From NCBI RefSeq assembly GCF_000759025.1, contig NZ_JPOS01000079.1, positions 1 to 64,000 on the forward strand: DNA of 64,000 nucleotides, given 5' to 3'. Positions 1-8,039 of the stretch are shown here, piece by piece. Source of the DNA: Phaeodactylibacter xiamenensis (GTDB lineage Bacteria; Bacteroidota; Bacteroidia; Chitinophagales; Saprospiraceae). The position numbers were made by a program, and so were the translations under genes. The first letter of the stretch is position 1, and every line of letters begins with the position of its first letter. The notes beneath the pieces are model-generated. The model ran no database searches. It was not told where the DNA came from and was given only the letters and a program-made list of their open reading frames with translations.

Positions 1-605
1 ATCTGACTGATCACACTGATCTTGCAACCCAGTGCCGCCCCACAAACATGCCCCGCTATTATGCCCCCGCTCGAAATCCGTGAAAATCCGCGCAATCCGT
101 CTAATCCGTGTTCCCCCTCACGCCGCGCACGACAATAGTACACTGAAGCCGCTGATCTGACTGATCACACTGATCTTGCAACCCAGTGCCGCCCCACAAA
201 CATGCCCCGCTCTTATGCCCCCGCTCGAAATCCGCGAAAATCCGCGCAATCCGTCTAATCCGTGTTCTCCCTCACGCCGCGCACGGCAATAGTAAACTGA
301 AGCCGCTGATCTGACTGAAACCACTGATCTCTGCAACCCAGTGCCGCCCCACAAACATGCCCCGCTCTTATGCCCCTGCTCGAAATCCGCGAAAATCCGC
401 GAAATCAGTCTAATCTGTGTTCCCCCTCACGCCGCGCACGGCAATAGTACACTGAAACCACTAATCTTTGCAACCCAGTGCCGCCCCACAAACATGCCCC
501 GCTCTTATGCCCCTGCTCGAAATCCGTGCAAATCTGCGCAATCAGTCTAATCCGTGTTCTCCCTCACGCCGCGCACGGCAATAGTAAACTGAAGCCGCTG
601 ATCTT
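1..605. repeat. Four-copy tandem intergenic repeat, unit 154 bp (last step 137 bp)
   Basis: Copies start at 1, 155 and 309, an exact 154-bp period. The fourth copy is shifted by 137 bp because about 17 bp near its left junction is missing. Each unit carries the same landmarks: ATCTGACTGATC, CAACCCAGTGCCGCCCC, a run of short AATCCGYG-like submotifs about 10-11 bp apart, and CACGCCGCGCACGGCAATAG. Neither 154 nor 137 is a multiple of three, so open frames across it are accidental. The array may continue to the left of the window. It ends about 125 bp before coaD. It is not a CRISPR array because there are no unique spacers between short repeats. Confidence 0.9.
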
Positions 606-730
606 TTCCACCAAGGCTTGCCTCGCTGAAGCGCCCCTGAAAAATCACCTAAACCCTATTCCCAATACCCAGTCTGCCCGATTTTTATATTTTTGTACTC
701 AATTCCCGAAAAGCCACCAAGCTCAACTAC

Positions 731-2399: not shown

Positions 2400-2610
2400 A
2401 GAAGATGCGATTTTTGACAAAAATAAAATAAATACAGCTACCAAATCCTATCGGGAGCGATATGGGGGCGTAAGTGTTTGGCGATTTGTAATAAAATTTC
2501 GATTTTAACGCCCGCTTCTGAATAAATATTCAGCAGCGTATTGTCTACAAAATTATGATACAAGGTGGAGTGGCCCAAAAGTGGGCGCCTGGCCTTTAAA
2601 ACCAAAACTT

Positions 2611-3678
2611 ATGCTTCGTTCAAAAATTGGGGGCATTGGTTCCTACGTGCCCGATAAAGTGGTAACCAATGACGATTTAACCAGAGTCATGGATACCAGT
2701 GATGAGTGGATTCAGGAGCGGACCGGCATTAAAGAGCGCCGGTATGGCACCAAACACGAAGAGACTACGACCACCATGGGGGCCCGCGCCGCTGAGATTG
2801 CCATCGAACGTGCCGGGATCAGTAAGGAAGATATAGATTTTATCATTTTCGCCACCCTCAGCCCGGACTACTATTTCCCTGGCTGTGGTGTTTTGCTGCA
2901 GCGCGAGTTGGGTATAACTAATACCGAGATTGGCGCGCTGGACATCCGGAATCAGTGCAGTGGGTTTGTGTATGGGCTGTCTGTAGCAGACCAGTTTGTG
3001 AAGACCGGCATGTACAAAAACGTACTGCTGGTAGGCGCAGAAATGCACTCTATGGGCCTGGATTTTAGCACAGAGGGCCGTGGTGTGACTGTCATTTTTG
3101 GCGATGGTGCCGGTGCGGTTGTGCTACAGCCCACTGAAGAAGAAGGTCAGGGCGTGCTCCAAACCTGCCTGCACTCGGATGGTACCTATGCAGAAAAACT
3201 GGCCTTTATCAACCCCGGCTCCCACGGTGGCTACCATAAAAAATATACCGGTGAGGAAGTCGATTATGGCTATTCGGATGCTGAATTTGGCGAGATTTTC
3301 CTGAATCAGCACATGCTCGACAACGATCAGATCTACCCGAATATGGAAGGGCAGTTCGTATTCAAAATGGCCGTGCAGAAATTCCCTCAGGTCATCATGG
3401 AGGCCCTGGAGAAAGCGGGCCTGAAGAAAGAAGACATCAATATGCTCGTGCCTCATCAGGCCAATCTGCGCATTAGCCAGTTCGTGCAAAAGCGCCTGGG
3501 GCTTAAGGATGAGCAGGTTTGGAATAACATTCAAAAATATGGCAACACCACTGCGGCATCTGTGCCCATCGCGCTTTGCGAAGCCTGGGAGTCCGGCGCA
3601 GTCAGGGATGGTGACCTGGTGTGCCTGGCTGCTTTTGGCAGTGGTTTCACCTGGGGCGCAGCTCTGATCAGATGGTAA
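2611..3678 (+). CDS. fabH: Beta-ketoacyl-ACP synthase III
   Basis: FabH condenses acetyl-CoA or another short acyl-CoA with malonyl-ACP to start type II fatty acid synthesis. In the 355-residue protein the catalytic triad is visible: C116 in IRNQCSGFVYGL, H282 in VPHQANLRI and N312 in YGNTTAAS. The C-terminal glycine-rich FGSGFTWGAALIRW is also typical. The start at 2611 is chosen over an upstream GTG at 2581 because MLRSKIGGIGSYVP matches the family N terminus. The body is slightly longer than E. coli FabH, with an insert around residues 190-240, as in a second FabH class found in Bacteroidota. It stands alone, without other fab genes beside it. Confidence 0.93.
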   Translation: MLRSKIGGIGSYVPDKVVTNDDLTRVMDTSDEWIQERTGIKERRYGTKHEETTTTMGARAAEIAIERAGISKEDIDFIIFATLSPDYYFPGCGVLLQRELGITNTEIGALDIRNQCSGFVYGLSVADQFVKTGMYKNVLLVGAEMHSMGLDFSTEGRGVTVIFGDGAGAVVLQPTEEEGQGVLQTCLHSDGTYAEKLAFINPGSHGGYHKKYTGEEVDYGYSDAEFGEIFLNQHMLDNDQIYPNMEGQFVFKMAVQKFPQVIMEALEKAGLKKEDINMLVPHQANLRISQFVQKRLGLKDEQVWNNIQKYGNTTAASVPIALCEAWESGAVRDGDLVCLAAFGSGFTWGAALIRW

Positions 3679-4526: not shown

Positions 4527-6971
4527 TTATTTGAGAAAGGCCCGGATGTGCGCCACTACCTCATCGGCACATTCCCATTGAATGAAGTGCCCGCACTTAG
4601 ACACAAAGAAAAGCCTGGCGTTAGGGAGTTGGGCTGCTCCCTCCCGGGCTACCTTCTCTGTGGTCAGGCCAGGGTTGATCATTTTGTTGGGGATAAGGGC
4701 ATCCTCTTTTCCGTACAAGACTAAGGTGGGGAGTTGCAAGTCCGGGAGGCGGTCGAAAACCGGGTGGTCAAGCATGCCGAGGACGCATCTGGGGATCATG
4801 TTGCAGTACTGTACGTAAGCTTCCGTATCTGCTCTTAATGCCATGCGTTCATCGATCATGAACTGCGCATCAGCAGGGAACTGATGGAAATTGGCGTGGA
4901 AGTTGCGCTCAATCTGATGGACAGGCGTAGCGCGCAATAACGCTGGTTTGTAAAAGGTCCGCAACCACTCCCGTGCAGCCGAGTTGAAACGCTCAAACCC
5001 GGCCGGGGCCAGCAGGATGAGCTTTGCAAAATGTTCCTGTGCCTGGAGTGCCGTAAAAATACTGGTCTGCCCGCCCATGGAATGACCGATGAGGACCGGC
5101 TGCCGGAGCTTCAGCGCCTCCTTAAATTGTAAAAGGGTTTCGGCAAAAAATGGAATATCAAAAGAATAGTCGCCTTTGTCAGACAGCCCGTACCCCGGCA
5201 AATCCAGCGCAACGCACCGATAATCGGACGACAGCTGTGGAATGACCTTGTCCCAGGCCTTCAGGTTACTGCCCAGCCCATGCACCATCAGCAGTGTGGT
5301 ACGCCCTTTGCCACGGTCCGTGTAATGAACCTTTGTGCCATTGGGCAAATCTATAAAGCGGTGCCATTCTGAAGCTTGTGCCAAAGCCATTGCTGATGAG
5401 GTTGCTGATGAATCAGGGGGAGGCGAAGCTACACTTTGTTGCGGACTTTTCGGGCGTGCTGCTGCTTTTTTACCTTCCTTTGGCCGCAGCCAGAGGTACA
5501 CTAATCCGCCAACAAGCAGTGAAGCCAGTATAGCAAAGGTCACGGCTACGGCCGGATTGCGGACCTCGGCCTGCATATACCAGCCAATGCGCCCGTAGTA
5601 GACGCCAAAGTGGACCAGAACCGCAGTCAGGCTTGCCGCTATCGGTGCCTGACGGGGGACTTCCTTCAGGAAAATGCCCATCAATACAGGTACAAAGGCT
5701 GCAGAGAAATAAGCATAGACTCCATTCTGAGCAAAAATGCCCACGCTCAGGCTGGGATGAATCAGCTGCTCGTAGGAAAGAGCTATGGAAATGACTGCGA
5801 GTATGACAATAACTATTTTATTAATAGCAACAAGCCGCTTTGCTTTGGTATGGCCTGCCCCCAGCTTGTGGCCGAGCACCGGGTCGATAATGTCTGATGT
5901 TATGGTTGAAGATAAGGACTGAATAAGGCCTTCCAGGGTTGAGAGGCCGGCAGAAATCAGACCGAGGATGACGACCAGCCCCACCATTACCGGGAACTCC
6001 GTAACCACATAGGTCGGGATGATGCCATCCATGCTAATGGGGGCGCCATCTGCAGTAAGGTCCGGAAACCGAAGGCGGGCATAAAGCCCGGCCAACACAA
6101 CGGAAAAGAATAAGGTTTCTACCAGGATGCCTGTGAGCAGGTACCGGTTGACGTCCCGCTCGTCTTTGAGCAGTAGTGATTTGGTGATTATATGAGGCTG
6201 GCATACGATGGCAATACCAACAATCAGGGAGCAAAAAACAATCTCAAAGTAGTCCCGGAACAGAAAACTCTCTGGGTTAACGGGTGATGCCAGCAGAGGG
6301 TCAACGGCAGCCAACTTATCCAGGAACCCTTTGACCCCATCGCTGAAGTGCTCATACCCGGACCCCAGCAGAATAAAAGCAACGATCGTCATCAGTACTG
6401 CCTGTATGGTATTGGTGTAGACCATAGAGTTGGCCCCGCCAAACATCATGTAACCAAAGACAAACACGATCAGCCCGATGAGGACGTATAGCTCTTCTGC
6501 ATTCAGGGCTTTGGCCAGAACTTTAGTCAGGCCAACACAAATCAACACTATAAAGGTGATGAGCAGGAGCGACAGGAACCCGAAAAACAGGGCATATTGC
6601 TTACTGCCATAGCGTTTGCCGATCCACTGCGCCATAGTGAGCGCTTTTACCGTAGCGCCATGCTTGCGGAAGCTTTTAGTCAGTACAATGAGCGAGAGGT
6701 AAATGCCAAGTGGCATCACCAACCCAAATGCCAGCAGCCCACTGATGCCATACAGCGCAATAAAGCCGGGGTTGATAATAAAGGTAGCAGCGCTTGTCAT
6801 TGAAGCAGCGAGAGACAACCCGACGACCACAGGGGAAAACTGAATTGAGCCAAGGGCATAGTCTGCTATGGAGGTCGTCCGCATTGCGCCGCGGATGACA
6901 AAGAATAGAATAGCTGCGCCGTAGAGGGCGAGCAGGCCTGCAGTGGCCCATACCAGTTCCTGTGAAGCCAT
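4527..6971 (-). CDS. Sodium:solute symporter fused to an alpha/beta hydrolase
   Basis: One uninterrupted 814-residue frame joins two enzyme-sized parts. Residues 1-500 are a sodium:solute symporter (SSS) family permease with about 13 hydrophobic segments and the helix GLISAGLSTLEGLIQSLSS, which matches the family sodium-site signature. Residues 500-535 are a Lys/Ala/Pro/Ser-rich linker. Residues 538-814 are an alpha/beta hydrolase with oxyanion HGLGS (564-568), nucleophile S631 in GHSMGG, D757 in YGKEDALIP and H795 in KCGHFIQWE, so the triad is complete. With 13 segments the hydrolase should face the cytoplasm. Substrate is unknown. It might cleave an imported ester, amide or thioester. It is divergent from phaB. 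Confidence 0.85.
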   Translation of the reverse strand: MASQELVWATAGLLALYGAAILFFVIRGAMRTTSIADYALGSIQFSPVVVGLSLAASMTSAATFIINPGFIALYGISGLLAFGLVMPLGIYLSLIVLTKSFRKHGATVKALTMAQWIGKRYGSKQYALFFGFLSLLLITFIVLICVGLTKVLAKALNAEELYVLIGLIVFVFGYMMFGGANSMVYTNTIQAVLMTIVAFILLGSGYEHFSDGVKGFLDKLAAVDPLLASPVNPESFLFRDYFEIVFCSLIVGIAIVCQPHIITKSLLLKDERDVNRYLLTGILVETLFFSVVLAGLYARLRFPDLTADGAPISMDGIIPTYVVTEFPVMVGLVVILGLISAGLSTLEGLIQSLSSTITSDIIDPVLGHKLGAGHTKAKRLVAINKIVIVILAVISIALSYEQLIHPSLSVGIFAQNGVYAYFSAAFVPVLMGIFLKEVPRQAPIAASLTAVLVHFGVYYGRIGWYMQAEVRNPAVAVTFAILASLLVGGLVYLWLRPKEGKKAAARPKSPQQSVASPPPDSSATSSAMALAQASEWHRFIDLPNGTKVHYTDRGKGRTTLLMVHGLGSNLKAWDKVIPQLSSDYRCVALDLPGYGLSDKGDYSFDIPFFAETLLQFKEALKLRQPVLIGHSMGGQTSIFTALQAQEHFAKLILLAPAGFERFNSAAREWLRTFYKPALLRATPVHQIERNFHANFHQFPADAQFMIDERMALRADTEAYVQYCNMIPRCVLGMLDHPVFDRLPDLQLPTLVLYGKEDALIPNKMINPGLTTEKVAREGAAQLPNARLFFVSKCGHFIQWECADEVVAHIRAFLK

Positions 6972-7223
6972 TTATTGAGTGCTAATTTTCTTTGATGAAA
7001 ATAGAAGAAAACCAATGAAAAGCAGGTCAGTTGATGAATTTATAAATAAAAATACGGGGTGGACTTAAGTACTTTTATTTAAAAATTTGAGTGGTATTAC
7101 CGTGGATGAGCACTGAGAAAGCTAGTGCATGCAATGGTCTTGTACGAGGATTCTTTTGCAGGCTGGCAGGGGTTGACCCATTGCCGGGGTGATGAAAATC
7201 AGCAGCAAACAACTTTTAAAAAG

Positions 7224-7244
7224 ATATAGATATCTATATATTTG
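7224..7244 (+). promoter_or_regulatory. Candidate phaB promoter -7 element overlapped by a 16-bp perfect palindrome
   Basis: ATATAGATATCTATAT at 7224-7239 is a perfect palindrome. It overlaps TATATTTG at 7237-7244, which fits the Bacteroidota -7 consensus TAnnTTTG. The -33 TTG is weak (TTT at the right distance). The start of phaB is 48 bp downstream. The rest of the 321-bp divergent spacer (6972-7292) is AT-rich and shows nothing else I can name. A regulator binding the palindrome would block the promoter, but this is inference. Confidence 0.45.
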
Positions 7245-7292
7245 TATTTGAAAGTAAAAGTGTAAACCAATACACCAAAAATCTCAGGTATC

Positions 7293-8039
7293 ATGACAAC
7301 AGACAAAAAGAATATTGCATTGGTAACCGGAGCCACAGGCGGGCTGGGAACCGATATGGTCAAGCAATTAATGGACGATGGCTACGTTGTGGCAGCTAAC
7401 TACCGAAGCCCTAATAAAGCAGAAGTATGGAAGGCAGAAATGGAAGCGGCAGGCTATGCGCCCCAACTATTTCAGGCGGATGTCTCTGATTTTGCTCAGG
7501 TTGGCAATATGATAGAGCAAATTGAGGCAGAACTGGGCACCGTTGACATTCTGGTCAATAATGCGGGTATTACCCGGGACGGGGCATTTAAGAAAATGAG
7601 CCCTGAAAACTGGGATGCGGTTATGAGAGCCAATTTGTACAGTGTCTTCAACTGCTGTCGGCACGTCATTAACCCAATGATTGAGCAGGGCTATGGGCGG
7701 ATTATCAATATTTCATCTGTTAACGGGCAACGTGCTCAGTTTGGGCAGTGCAACTACGCTGCAGCGAAGGCGGGCATGCATGGTTTTACGAAAACACTGG
7801 CTATTGAGGTGGCCCGAAAAGGAGTAACGGTAAATACCATTTCTCCGGGTTATATTGCCACAGATATGGTCATGGCAGTAGATGAGTCCGTACGGGAAAA
7901 GATTGTCAAAGGCATCCCCATCGGCCGGCTCGGTGGCACTTATGAAATTGCCCACCTTGTTTCTTTTCTGGCTTCAAAGGATGCGGCCTTTATTACCGGG
8001 GCCAATTACGCAATCAACGGTGGCCAGCATGTGTACTGA
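7293..8039 (+). CDS. phaB: Acetoacetyl-CoA reductase (PhaB-type short-chain dehydrogenase)
   Basis: The 248-residue protein is a classical NAD(P)-dependent short-chain dehydrogenase. It has the cofactor motif TGATGGLG (12-19), NNAGITRDG, and the catalytic pair Y155 and K159 in YAAAKAG. The stretches NGQRAQFGQCNY, VNTISPGYIATDMV and the C-terminal NGGQHVY are more like PhaB than FabG. PhaB reduces acetoacetyl-CoA to (R)-3-hydroxybutyryl-CoA for polyhydroxybutyrate synthesis. No phaA or phaC is in the window, so a general 3-oxoacyl reductase role remains possible. The gene is divergent from the symporter-hydrolase fusion. Confidence 0.85.
   Translation: MTTDKKNIALVTGATGGLGTDMVKQLMDDGYVVAANYRSPNKAEVWKAEMEAAGYAPQLFQADVSDFAQVGNMIEQIEAELGTVDILVNNAGITRDGAFKKMSPENWDAVMRANLYSVFNCCRHVINPMIEQGYGRIINISSVNGQRAQFGQCNYAAAKAGMHGFTKTLAIEVARKGVTVNTISPGYIATDMVMAVDESVREKIVKGIPIGRLGGTYEIAHLVSFLASKDAAFITGANYAINGGQHVY

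Follow-up and report, generated by a model that had tools for sequence, protein, structure and literature searches.

We analysed a 64,000-nucleotide stretch of the genome of Phaeodactylibacter xiamenensis (contig NZ_JPOS01000079.1, positions 1 to 64,000; hereafter the window), in which one gene joins a sodium:solute symporter (SSS) permease to an alpha/beta hydrolase. This single-chain fusion is real, being neither a base error nor an assembly error. Its enzyme is best read as the cytosolic, polyhydroxyalkanoate (PHA)-associated sort of its family, joined to an importer that elsewhere is paired with an exported version. With about even confidence, we propose an inner-membrane Na+/solute symporter with a cytosolic PHA-linked serine hydrolase attached to it, a protein that would import 3-hydroxyacid oligoesters, cleave them at the cytosolic face and feed PHA metabolism. 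We infer the topology in the cell, the substrate, the direction of transport and the coupling of transport to hydrolysis from the comparisons given below.

Architecture of the fused protein

The frame starts with ATG and runs for 814 codons with no internal stop, as the initial annotation had described. It comprises the following parts:

4527..6971, minus strand: fused gene for SSS permease, linker and alpha/beta hydrolase, 814 residues (open frame and Pfam)
5484..6971, minus strand: SSS part, residues 1-496, with 13 predicted membrane segments (Pfam, hydropathy and SiaT alignment)
5367..5483, minus strand: hydrophilic Lys/Pro/Ser/Ala linker, residues 497-535 (39 residues), containing Met528
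4530..5366, minus strand: alpha/beta hydrolase domain, residues 536-814 (Pfam and triad)
5079-5081, 4701-4703 and 4587-4589, minus strand: codons of the catalytic triad, S631, D757 and H795, respectively

Residues 38-442 match Pfam SSF (PF00474) with 122.8 bits against a gathering threshold of 22.8 (E 2.1e-35), while residues 559-800 match Abhydrolase_1 (PF00561) with 110 bits against a cut-off of 25.8 (E 1.6e-31). The Ser-Asp-His triad is complete, with S631 (in GHSMGG), D757 and H795 all found at the positions first assigned to them. A hydropathy scan of the protein returned 13 segments at a cut-off of 1.3 and 12 at 1.5, segment 12 being weak; the lower cut-off agrees with the 13 segments of the initial annotation. 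As the loops assigned to the inside contain 25 Lys and Arg residues and those outside 9 (summed from the hydropathy listing), the permease is predicted to have its N-terminus out and its C-terminus in. The same kind of scan found no signal or membrane-like segment in residues 497-535 of the linker. The hydrolase should therefore face the cytosol, the placement that had been predicted from the odd number of segments.

Permease residues 14-485 align with residues 14-479 of SiaT (5nv9) at ~30 bits. In this computed alignment, A56, A341, S344 and T345 fall on SiaT A56, A339, S342 and S343, which we take to be its Na2 site, and the matching positions of the window protein are thus a putative Na2 site. 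Na+-driven transport by the permease is a prediction based on its family.

Authenticity of the fusion

Contigs C78 and C79 of the window genome (G000) overlap by 5831 bp at 100% identity. Because the junction lies within this common part, an apparent second copy of the fusion on C78 was rejected as the same locus. A 154-bp tandem repeat in four copies lies at the contig end (window positions 1-606), and the break between the two contigs may stem from it.

Orthologous, unbroken fused frames were found in genomes G002, G003, G004, G025 and G227, and frames truncated at contig ends in G001 and G153. The ratio of nonsynonymous to synonymous substitution (dN/dS) among G000, G002 and G004 was 0.03-0.05 for permease and hydrolase alike and 0.28-0.33 for the linker; purifying selection acts on both domains. 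The sole exception found within the genus is G005 (L038:5913-8557), where frame shifts within the linker give two open reading frames (ORFs); this split form is nested inside the Phaeodactylibacter clade of the permease tree. All 12 fused records whose titles were read are metagenome bins, which would suit an assembly or sequencing artefact. Nevertheless, the chance of such an artefact is negligible: the same frame occurs in several separately assembled genomes and on two overlapping contigs, under purifying selection, and its recurrence in effect refutes the junction error that the initial annotation had allowed for.

Distribution of fused and separate genes

A scan of genome contigs found 265 relatives, of which the best 80 form our locus set. 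Twelve of these 80 loci are fused; among the remaining 68, ten had no hydrolase in reach, some being cut by a contig end. All 12 fused loci come from metagenome bins, under the titles Saprospiraceae, Phaeodactylibacter, Bacteroidetes or Chitinophagales, and the hydrophilic-linker relatives that carry names are mostly Phaeodactylibacter bins. The two-gene form was found in Pontibacter and in those loci of Fulvivirga, Flavobacteriaceae and Balneolia that had a hydrolase in reach. The fused architecture thus recurs in Phaeodactylibacter-type genomes, so that homologues are not always two separate genes, although most of them are.

A phylum sample (395 genomes, 46 of them with the permease at E<=1e-100) gave no match into the hydrolase in any of the 45 genomes other than that of the window, the furthest query residue reached being 532. 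Of 298 genomes sampled from the order, 19 had a match, and the fused frames listed among them were those of G000, G121, G168 and G068, all from the family of the window; G231 matched over the whole length, but a stop separates its domains. Two permease relatives from bins titled Gammaproteobacteria (L176) and Rickettsiales (L185) stood among Bacteroidota and Balneolota rows of the tree, reflecting either wrong binning or transfer.

Two kinds of fusion with opposite predicted placement of the hydrolase

According to a simple hydropathy-based scan, 80 of the 94 distinct places with a stand-alone hydrolase of this family encode a signal peptide or lipobox, and three of the 14 signal-less places (L140, L169 and L106) resemble missed or cut signals. 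Among proteins of the operon described below, the scan passed all those expected to be exported (TonB receptor 49/49, outer-membrane-barrel-like protein 18/18, lipoprotein 16/16) and few of those expected not to be (acyl-CoA ligase 3/57, beta-ketoacyl synthase III (KAS-III) 2/61, ~470-residue protein 0/34, FabG 8/68).

Fused genes were found at 14 distinct places. Seven, each of the Phaeodactylibacter kind, have a hydrophilic linker, and in the other seven (L083-L086, L119, L128 and L196, from Saprospiraceae-type bins) the linker includes a hydrophobic, signal-like segment; L060 is an eighth hydrophilic-linker fusion. With 13 permease segments followed by either none or one more, a cytosolic hydrolase is predicted for the first kind and a periplasmic one for the second, and in the seven membrane-linked fusions it probably lies outside the inner membrane. 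Five of these seven are accompanied by a TonB receptor, KAS-III and ligase, while L083 is cut by a contig end and the operon was not seen at L119. Since the stand-alone enzyme is mostly exported and seven fusions are predicted to face outwards, a cytosolic placement would be particular to the lineage of the window and not general to the pair. The initial annotation thus held in part, having missed that most homologues are separate genes, that the hydrolase is usually exported, that fusion was repeated and that seven fusions should face outwards.

It is very unlikely that the hydrolase of the window is periplasmic too. The prevalence of signals at stand-alone places and the signal-like segments of the other seven fusions would favor it, but the 13 segments, the charge bias and a linker with no hydrophobic stretch speak against it, as does the clustering of the domain mostly with signal-less hydrolases. 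In the hydrolase tree (98 rows, many weak branches), most hydrolases around the hydrophilic-linker domains are signal-less, and the membrane-linked domains fall among exported ones; L169, labelled exported, falls in the signal-less group. The labels on this tree were given at a signal threshold of 1.75, with L050, L106, L242 and L295 set by hand, and were reused for the counts of neighboring reductases below.

In the permease tree (109 rows, built by a quick method with SH-aLRT support only; L119 was left out, its permease being cut), fused rows stand in three places and four state changes are needed. A single origin of all fusions was rejected by the approximately unbiased (AU) test (p 7e-11; 15 rows against 94, L038 included), and branches that set L128 apart as a separate origin have support of 84-92. 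Fusion arose in at least two lineages, probably three.

The linker also bears on whether the hydrolase could be made or released separately, either through translation starting at Met528 or through a cut in the linker. We consider this unlikely, if less so than a periplasmic location. A Met stands shortly ahead of the hydrolase in 8/8 hydrophilic linkers, and Met528 is near the start position of several signal-less stand-alone hydrolases; this residue may, however, belong to a conserved motif that follows the signal peptide of the exported forms, and the permease frame is stop-free through the fused members.

Link to class III PHA synthase

We searched for PHA synthase with PF07167 and then for class III PhaC with TIGR01836 (cut-off 365) in a family sample of 298 genomes from the family of the window, 80 of which have a permease or hydrolase of the window kind (E<=1e-40). 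Class III PhaC was found in 31 of the 298; the PhaC of G006, for instance, near permease/hydrolase-family genes, scored 436 bits. The permease/hydrolase family occurs in 25 of the 31 genomes with PhaC and in 55 of the 267 without it (Fisher p 4e-11), and five of the six genomes with PhaC that do not have the family belong to one genus. In ten of the 25 (G013, G025, G032, G128, G131, G132, G139, G212, G263 and G265), PhaC lies <=6 kb from a hydrolase of the family; these pairs span seven genera, for which a simple model that ignores descent gives a rough chance of 1e-15.

The cytosolic form of the hydrolase is likewise associated with PhaC, having been found in 24/25 genomes with PhaC and 8/50 without it (p 9e-12). 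By the scan alone, with no hand changes, the counts are 21/25 and 11/50 (p 3e-7), and by genus 14/14 and 7/27 (p 3e-6). N-termini were read in 75 of the 80 genomes, leaving out G133, G162, G178, G192 and G266; L242, L273, L295, L050 and G032 (with the contig-edge hydrolase L298) were set by hand to cytosolic and L092, L106 and L255 to exported. Among 25 genomes outside the family sample, hand-picked from the named loci, with exported or membrane-linked hydrolases, none matched class III PhaC; controls in that set gave no match either, while the same model matched 31 genomes of the family sample.

In G032, the hydrolase is divergent from phaB, followed by PhaC, a PhaE-like gene, a phasin-like gene and PhaA, and in G025 the fusion is divergent from phaB, two other ORFs, PhaC, a PhaE-like gene, a 146-residue ORF and PhaA. 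In G000, PhaA, phasin-like, PhaE-like and PhaC genes stand together on contig C81, apart from the contig of the fusion. The names PhaE and phasin were given from position and look only.

The divergent phaB-type neighbor

The window fusion has a phaB-type neighbor of its own, from which the initial annotation had drawn a link to short hydroxyacids:

7293..8039, plus strand: divergent acetoacetyl-CoA reductase, phaB type (NCBIfam TIGR01829)
6972..7292, no strand: divergent intergenic region common to the fusion and phaB

The reductase passes TIGR01829 with 338.1 bits (cut-off 302.1), whereas on NF042966, a stricter PhaB equivalog, it reaches 186 of the 436 bits required. Outside the genus, the short-chain dehydrogenases/reductases (SDRs) that we compared have either 71-81% or 37-48% identity to it. 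Taking >=60% identity as phaB-type and 4.5 kb from the hydrolase as the reach, we found a phaB-type SDR near 16/31 cytosolic-type and 0/67 exported-type hydrolases (p 3e-10), which strengthens the proposed hydroxyacid link. FabG-type SDRs were found near 4/31 and 36/67, respectively, and no SDR near 11/31 and 31/67, some of these loci being short.

Within the intergenic region, block 7224-7244 (ATATAGATATCTATATATTTG) is nearly invariant over six aligned regions, contains a perfect 16-bp palindrome in three of them and includes TAnnTTTG, which we take to be a Bacteroidota promoter motif. The block is a possible promoter or operator shared by the two genes.

The uptake operon around permease and hydrolase

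In several Bacteroidota families and in Balneolia, one operon usually encodes the permease and the hydrolase by two genes, and its other members are KAS-III, an acyl-CoA ligase (AMP-forming), a reductase of FabG type and a ~470-residue protein. Its outer-membrane part exists in two versions, either a TonB receptor or a lipoprotein with an outer-membrane-barrel-like protein. L161 additionally has a MaoC hydratase and L183 a thiolase, and in G028 a thiolase adjoins the hydrolase. Members outside the scanned set were named by similarity to scanned ones. In the window genome the operon is scattered: C39 contains TonB receptor, KAS-III and ligase, C38 the ~470-residue protein, and C22 a lipoprotein, a barrel protein and a second hydrolase.

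The ~470-residue protein (c4; for example L040:4038-5549, minus strand) matched nothing in Pfam or NCBIfam among the members scanned, and its label 'TPR-like' comes from look only. It has FabG as a neighbor in PHA clusters as well as in the uptake operon, and is possibly a PHA granule or regulatory protein. The substitute for the TonB receptor consists of c6, an outer-membrane-barrel-like protein of ~520 residues, and c7, a lipoprotein of ~180 residues, which had no Pfam match (L044:7649-9854 and relatives). In Pontibacter amylolyticus (L146:4658-7700), a 7TMR-DISM histidine kinase and a LytTR regulator adjoin the symporter, hydrolase and TonB genes; the pair is repeated in the Pontibacter loci fetched and offers a lead to the inducer. 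Near the gene for the ~470-residue protein on C38 lies a PtuA-like ATPase (L222:1915-3210; 302 bits against a cut-off of 500), possibly a defence gene.

Two candidates suggested by this set of genes were set aside. The fabH of the window (2581-3678) was rejected as a part of the system, being of FabH type at 377 bits with 32% identity to the operon KAS-III; a close relative of the latter in G000 (68%) lies on C39 next to the ligase. The combination of KAS-III, ligase, SDR and hydrolase also recalls the OleABCD olefin pathway. The nucleophile of OleB is Asp; because the hydrolase has Ser in its place, this pathway was set aside.

Proposed working and alternatives

We propose that short (R)-3-hydroxyacid oligoesters would cross the outer membrane by a TonB receptor or porin whose gene lies elsewhere in the genome, and that the second, lipoprotein-type hydrolase (C22) may trim them in the periplasm. 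The symporter would then take up Na+ together with monomers or short esters, and the hydrolase tethered to it would complete cleavage at the cytosolic face of the membrane. Finally, the acyl-CoA ligase (C39) would activate the hydroxyacids for entry into the PhaB/PhaA/PhaC cycle. A PHA oligoester is thus the substrate suggested by gene neighborhood and co-occurrence. More tentatively, the hydrolase family may switch sides of the inner membrane with PHA storage: exported, or tethered outside by what was once its signal peptide, where there is no class III PhaC, and cytosolic, often beside phaB, in PHA storers, with the Phaeodactylibacter fusion allowing hydrolysis to pull uptake.

Several observations weigh against this proposal. 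The hydrolase scored 94.2 bits against the intracellular short-chain-length PHA (scl-PHA) depolymerase model NF050089, far from its cut-off of 300, and its signal-less relatives scored no better; it scored higher on acetoin-E2-type hydrolases and about equally on PcaD. The PDB sequence matches of the domain are led by the PHB depolymerase 8ynv (1.5e-18), but it is barely ahead of general esterases there, and for the whole protein it ranks fourth. PhaC adjoins an exported hydrolase in G132, G212 and G263, three of the ten close pairs; eight genomes with the cytosolic form have no PhaC, G206 has PhaC with no such form, and the genome counts are not independent of descent. Furthermore, no phaB-type gene is in reach of 15/31 cytosolic-type hydrolases, of which four are near FabG instead and 11 had no SDR found, and the operon KAS-III is unneeded for simple 3-hydroxyacid catabolism. 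In G006 (L050:5844-7025, minus strand), the permease appears internally deleted to about two membrane segments with the hydrolase intact, and G005 has a split chain; transport and hydrolysis thus need not be coupled.

The substrate could instead be another acyl ester, for instance an aromatic or longer acyl one, whose acid the ligase would activate and KAS-III and FabG extend. This has a real though lesser chance. The genes of the wider operon are those for KAS-III, ligase and FabG and not PHA genes, exported hydrolases go with FabG-type and not phaB-type SDRs, and 55 of the 80 family-bearing genomes have no class III PhaC. On the other hand, the cytosolic kind found in the window is strongly linked to phaB and PhaC, and the MaoC and thiolase of some loci suit 3-hydroxyacyl-CoA.

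Alternatively, the fusion might be one of neighbors with no coupling: loss of a stop codon would have joined two genes of a pathway, leaving the domains independent and the permease a mere anchor. We give this a lesser chance too, about equal to that of another acyl ester. Permease and hydrolase are adjacent in many unfused relatives, mostly with <250 bp from the stop to the start of hydrolase homology. The hydrolase persists on a permease remnant in G006, has no permease beside it in G013 and is split off in G005; G006 and G013 show that keeping the enzyme does not require the transporter. Against this, fusion has at least two, probably three, origins in a single family, and the chain stayed open through deep divergence despite the drift of the linker.

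Returning to the import and cytosolic cleavage of PHA oligoesters, if this reading is true, the fusion represents a concrete candidate for how Bacteroidota take up and degrade bioplastic oligomers, and its enzyme a candidate for the intracellular depolymerase, or oligomer hydrolase, of class III PHA producers. The repeated fusion with two opposite predicted placements also provides a natural test of cutting before as opposed to after import.

Comparison with known systems

Matching open-access papers by words, we found none on an SSS-hydrolase fusion, on such an operon or on a 3-hydroxybutyrate (3HB) transporter, which does not imply absence from print. As a member of the SSS family (TC 2.A.21; PF00474), the window permease is above the SSF cut-off, aligns along SiaT 5nv9 and keeps the putative Na2 positions; against the 13-14 membrane segments of LeuT type expected of the family, it shows 12 or 13 hydrophobic segments, depending on the cut-off. 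It stays below the cut-offs of the more specific transporter models (sss 120/184, panF 97/328 and Na_symport_lg 56/321 bits) and differs from these transporters in carrying a hydrolase.

With the intracellular PHA depolymerases, including 8ynv, the window protein has in common a Ser-Asp-His triad. It is also predicted to place its hydrolase in the cytosol and is encoded beside phaB, while the linkage to PhaC is that of relatives, the PhaC of G000 being on another contig. The pairs of Pontibacter, Fulvivirga, Flavobacteriaceae and Balneolia have an orthologous permease (62-69% identity) and, where in reach, a homologous hydrolase (35-48%), but they are two genes, and the hydrolase has a signal peptide or lipobox; class III PhaC was found in 0/25 genomes searched, some of them from this group. 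The membrane-linked fusions join the same two domains in one frame and, unlike the window protein, have a signal-peptide-like segment in the linker.

Finally, the SLC5/STAC histidine kinases CbrA and CrbS similarly combine a 13-segment SSS domain with further C-terminal domains in one chain (PMC7918813). The fusions described in the parts of that review available to us are to sensor kinases, with none to hydrolases among them. These kinases add STAC, PAS and kinase domains, whereas the window protein adds an alpha/beta hydrolase after a 39-residue linker; Pfam found no STAC or kinase domain in it, only SSF and hydrolase/esterase families. Where the reviewed fusions join the transporter fold to a sensor, that of the window joins it to a likely catabolic enzyme.

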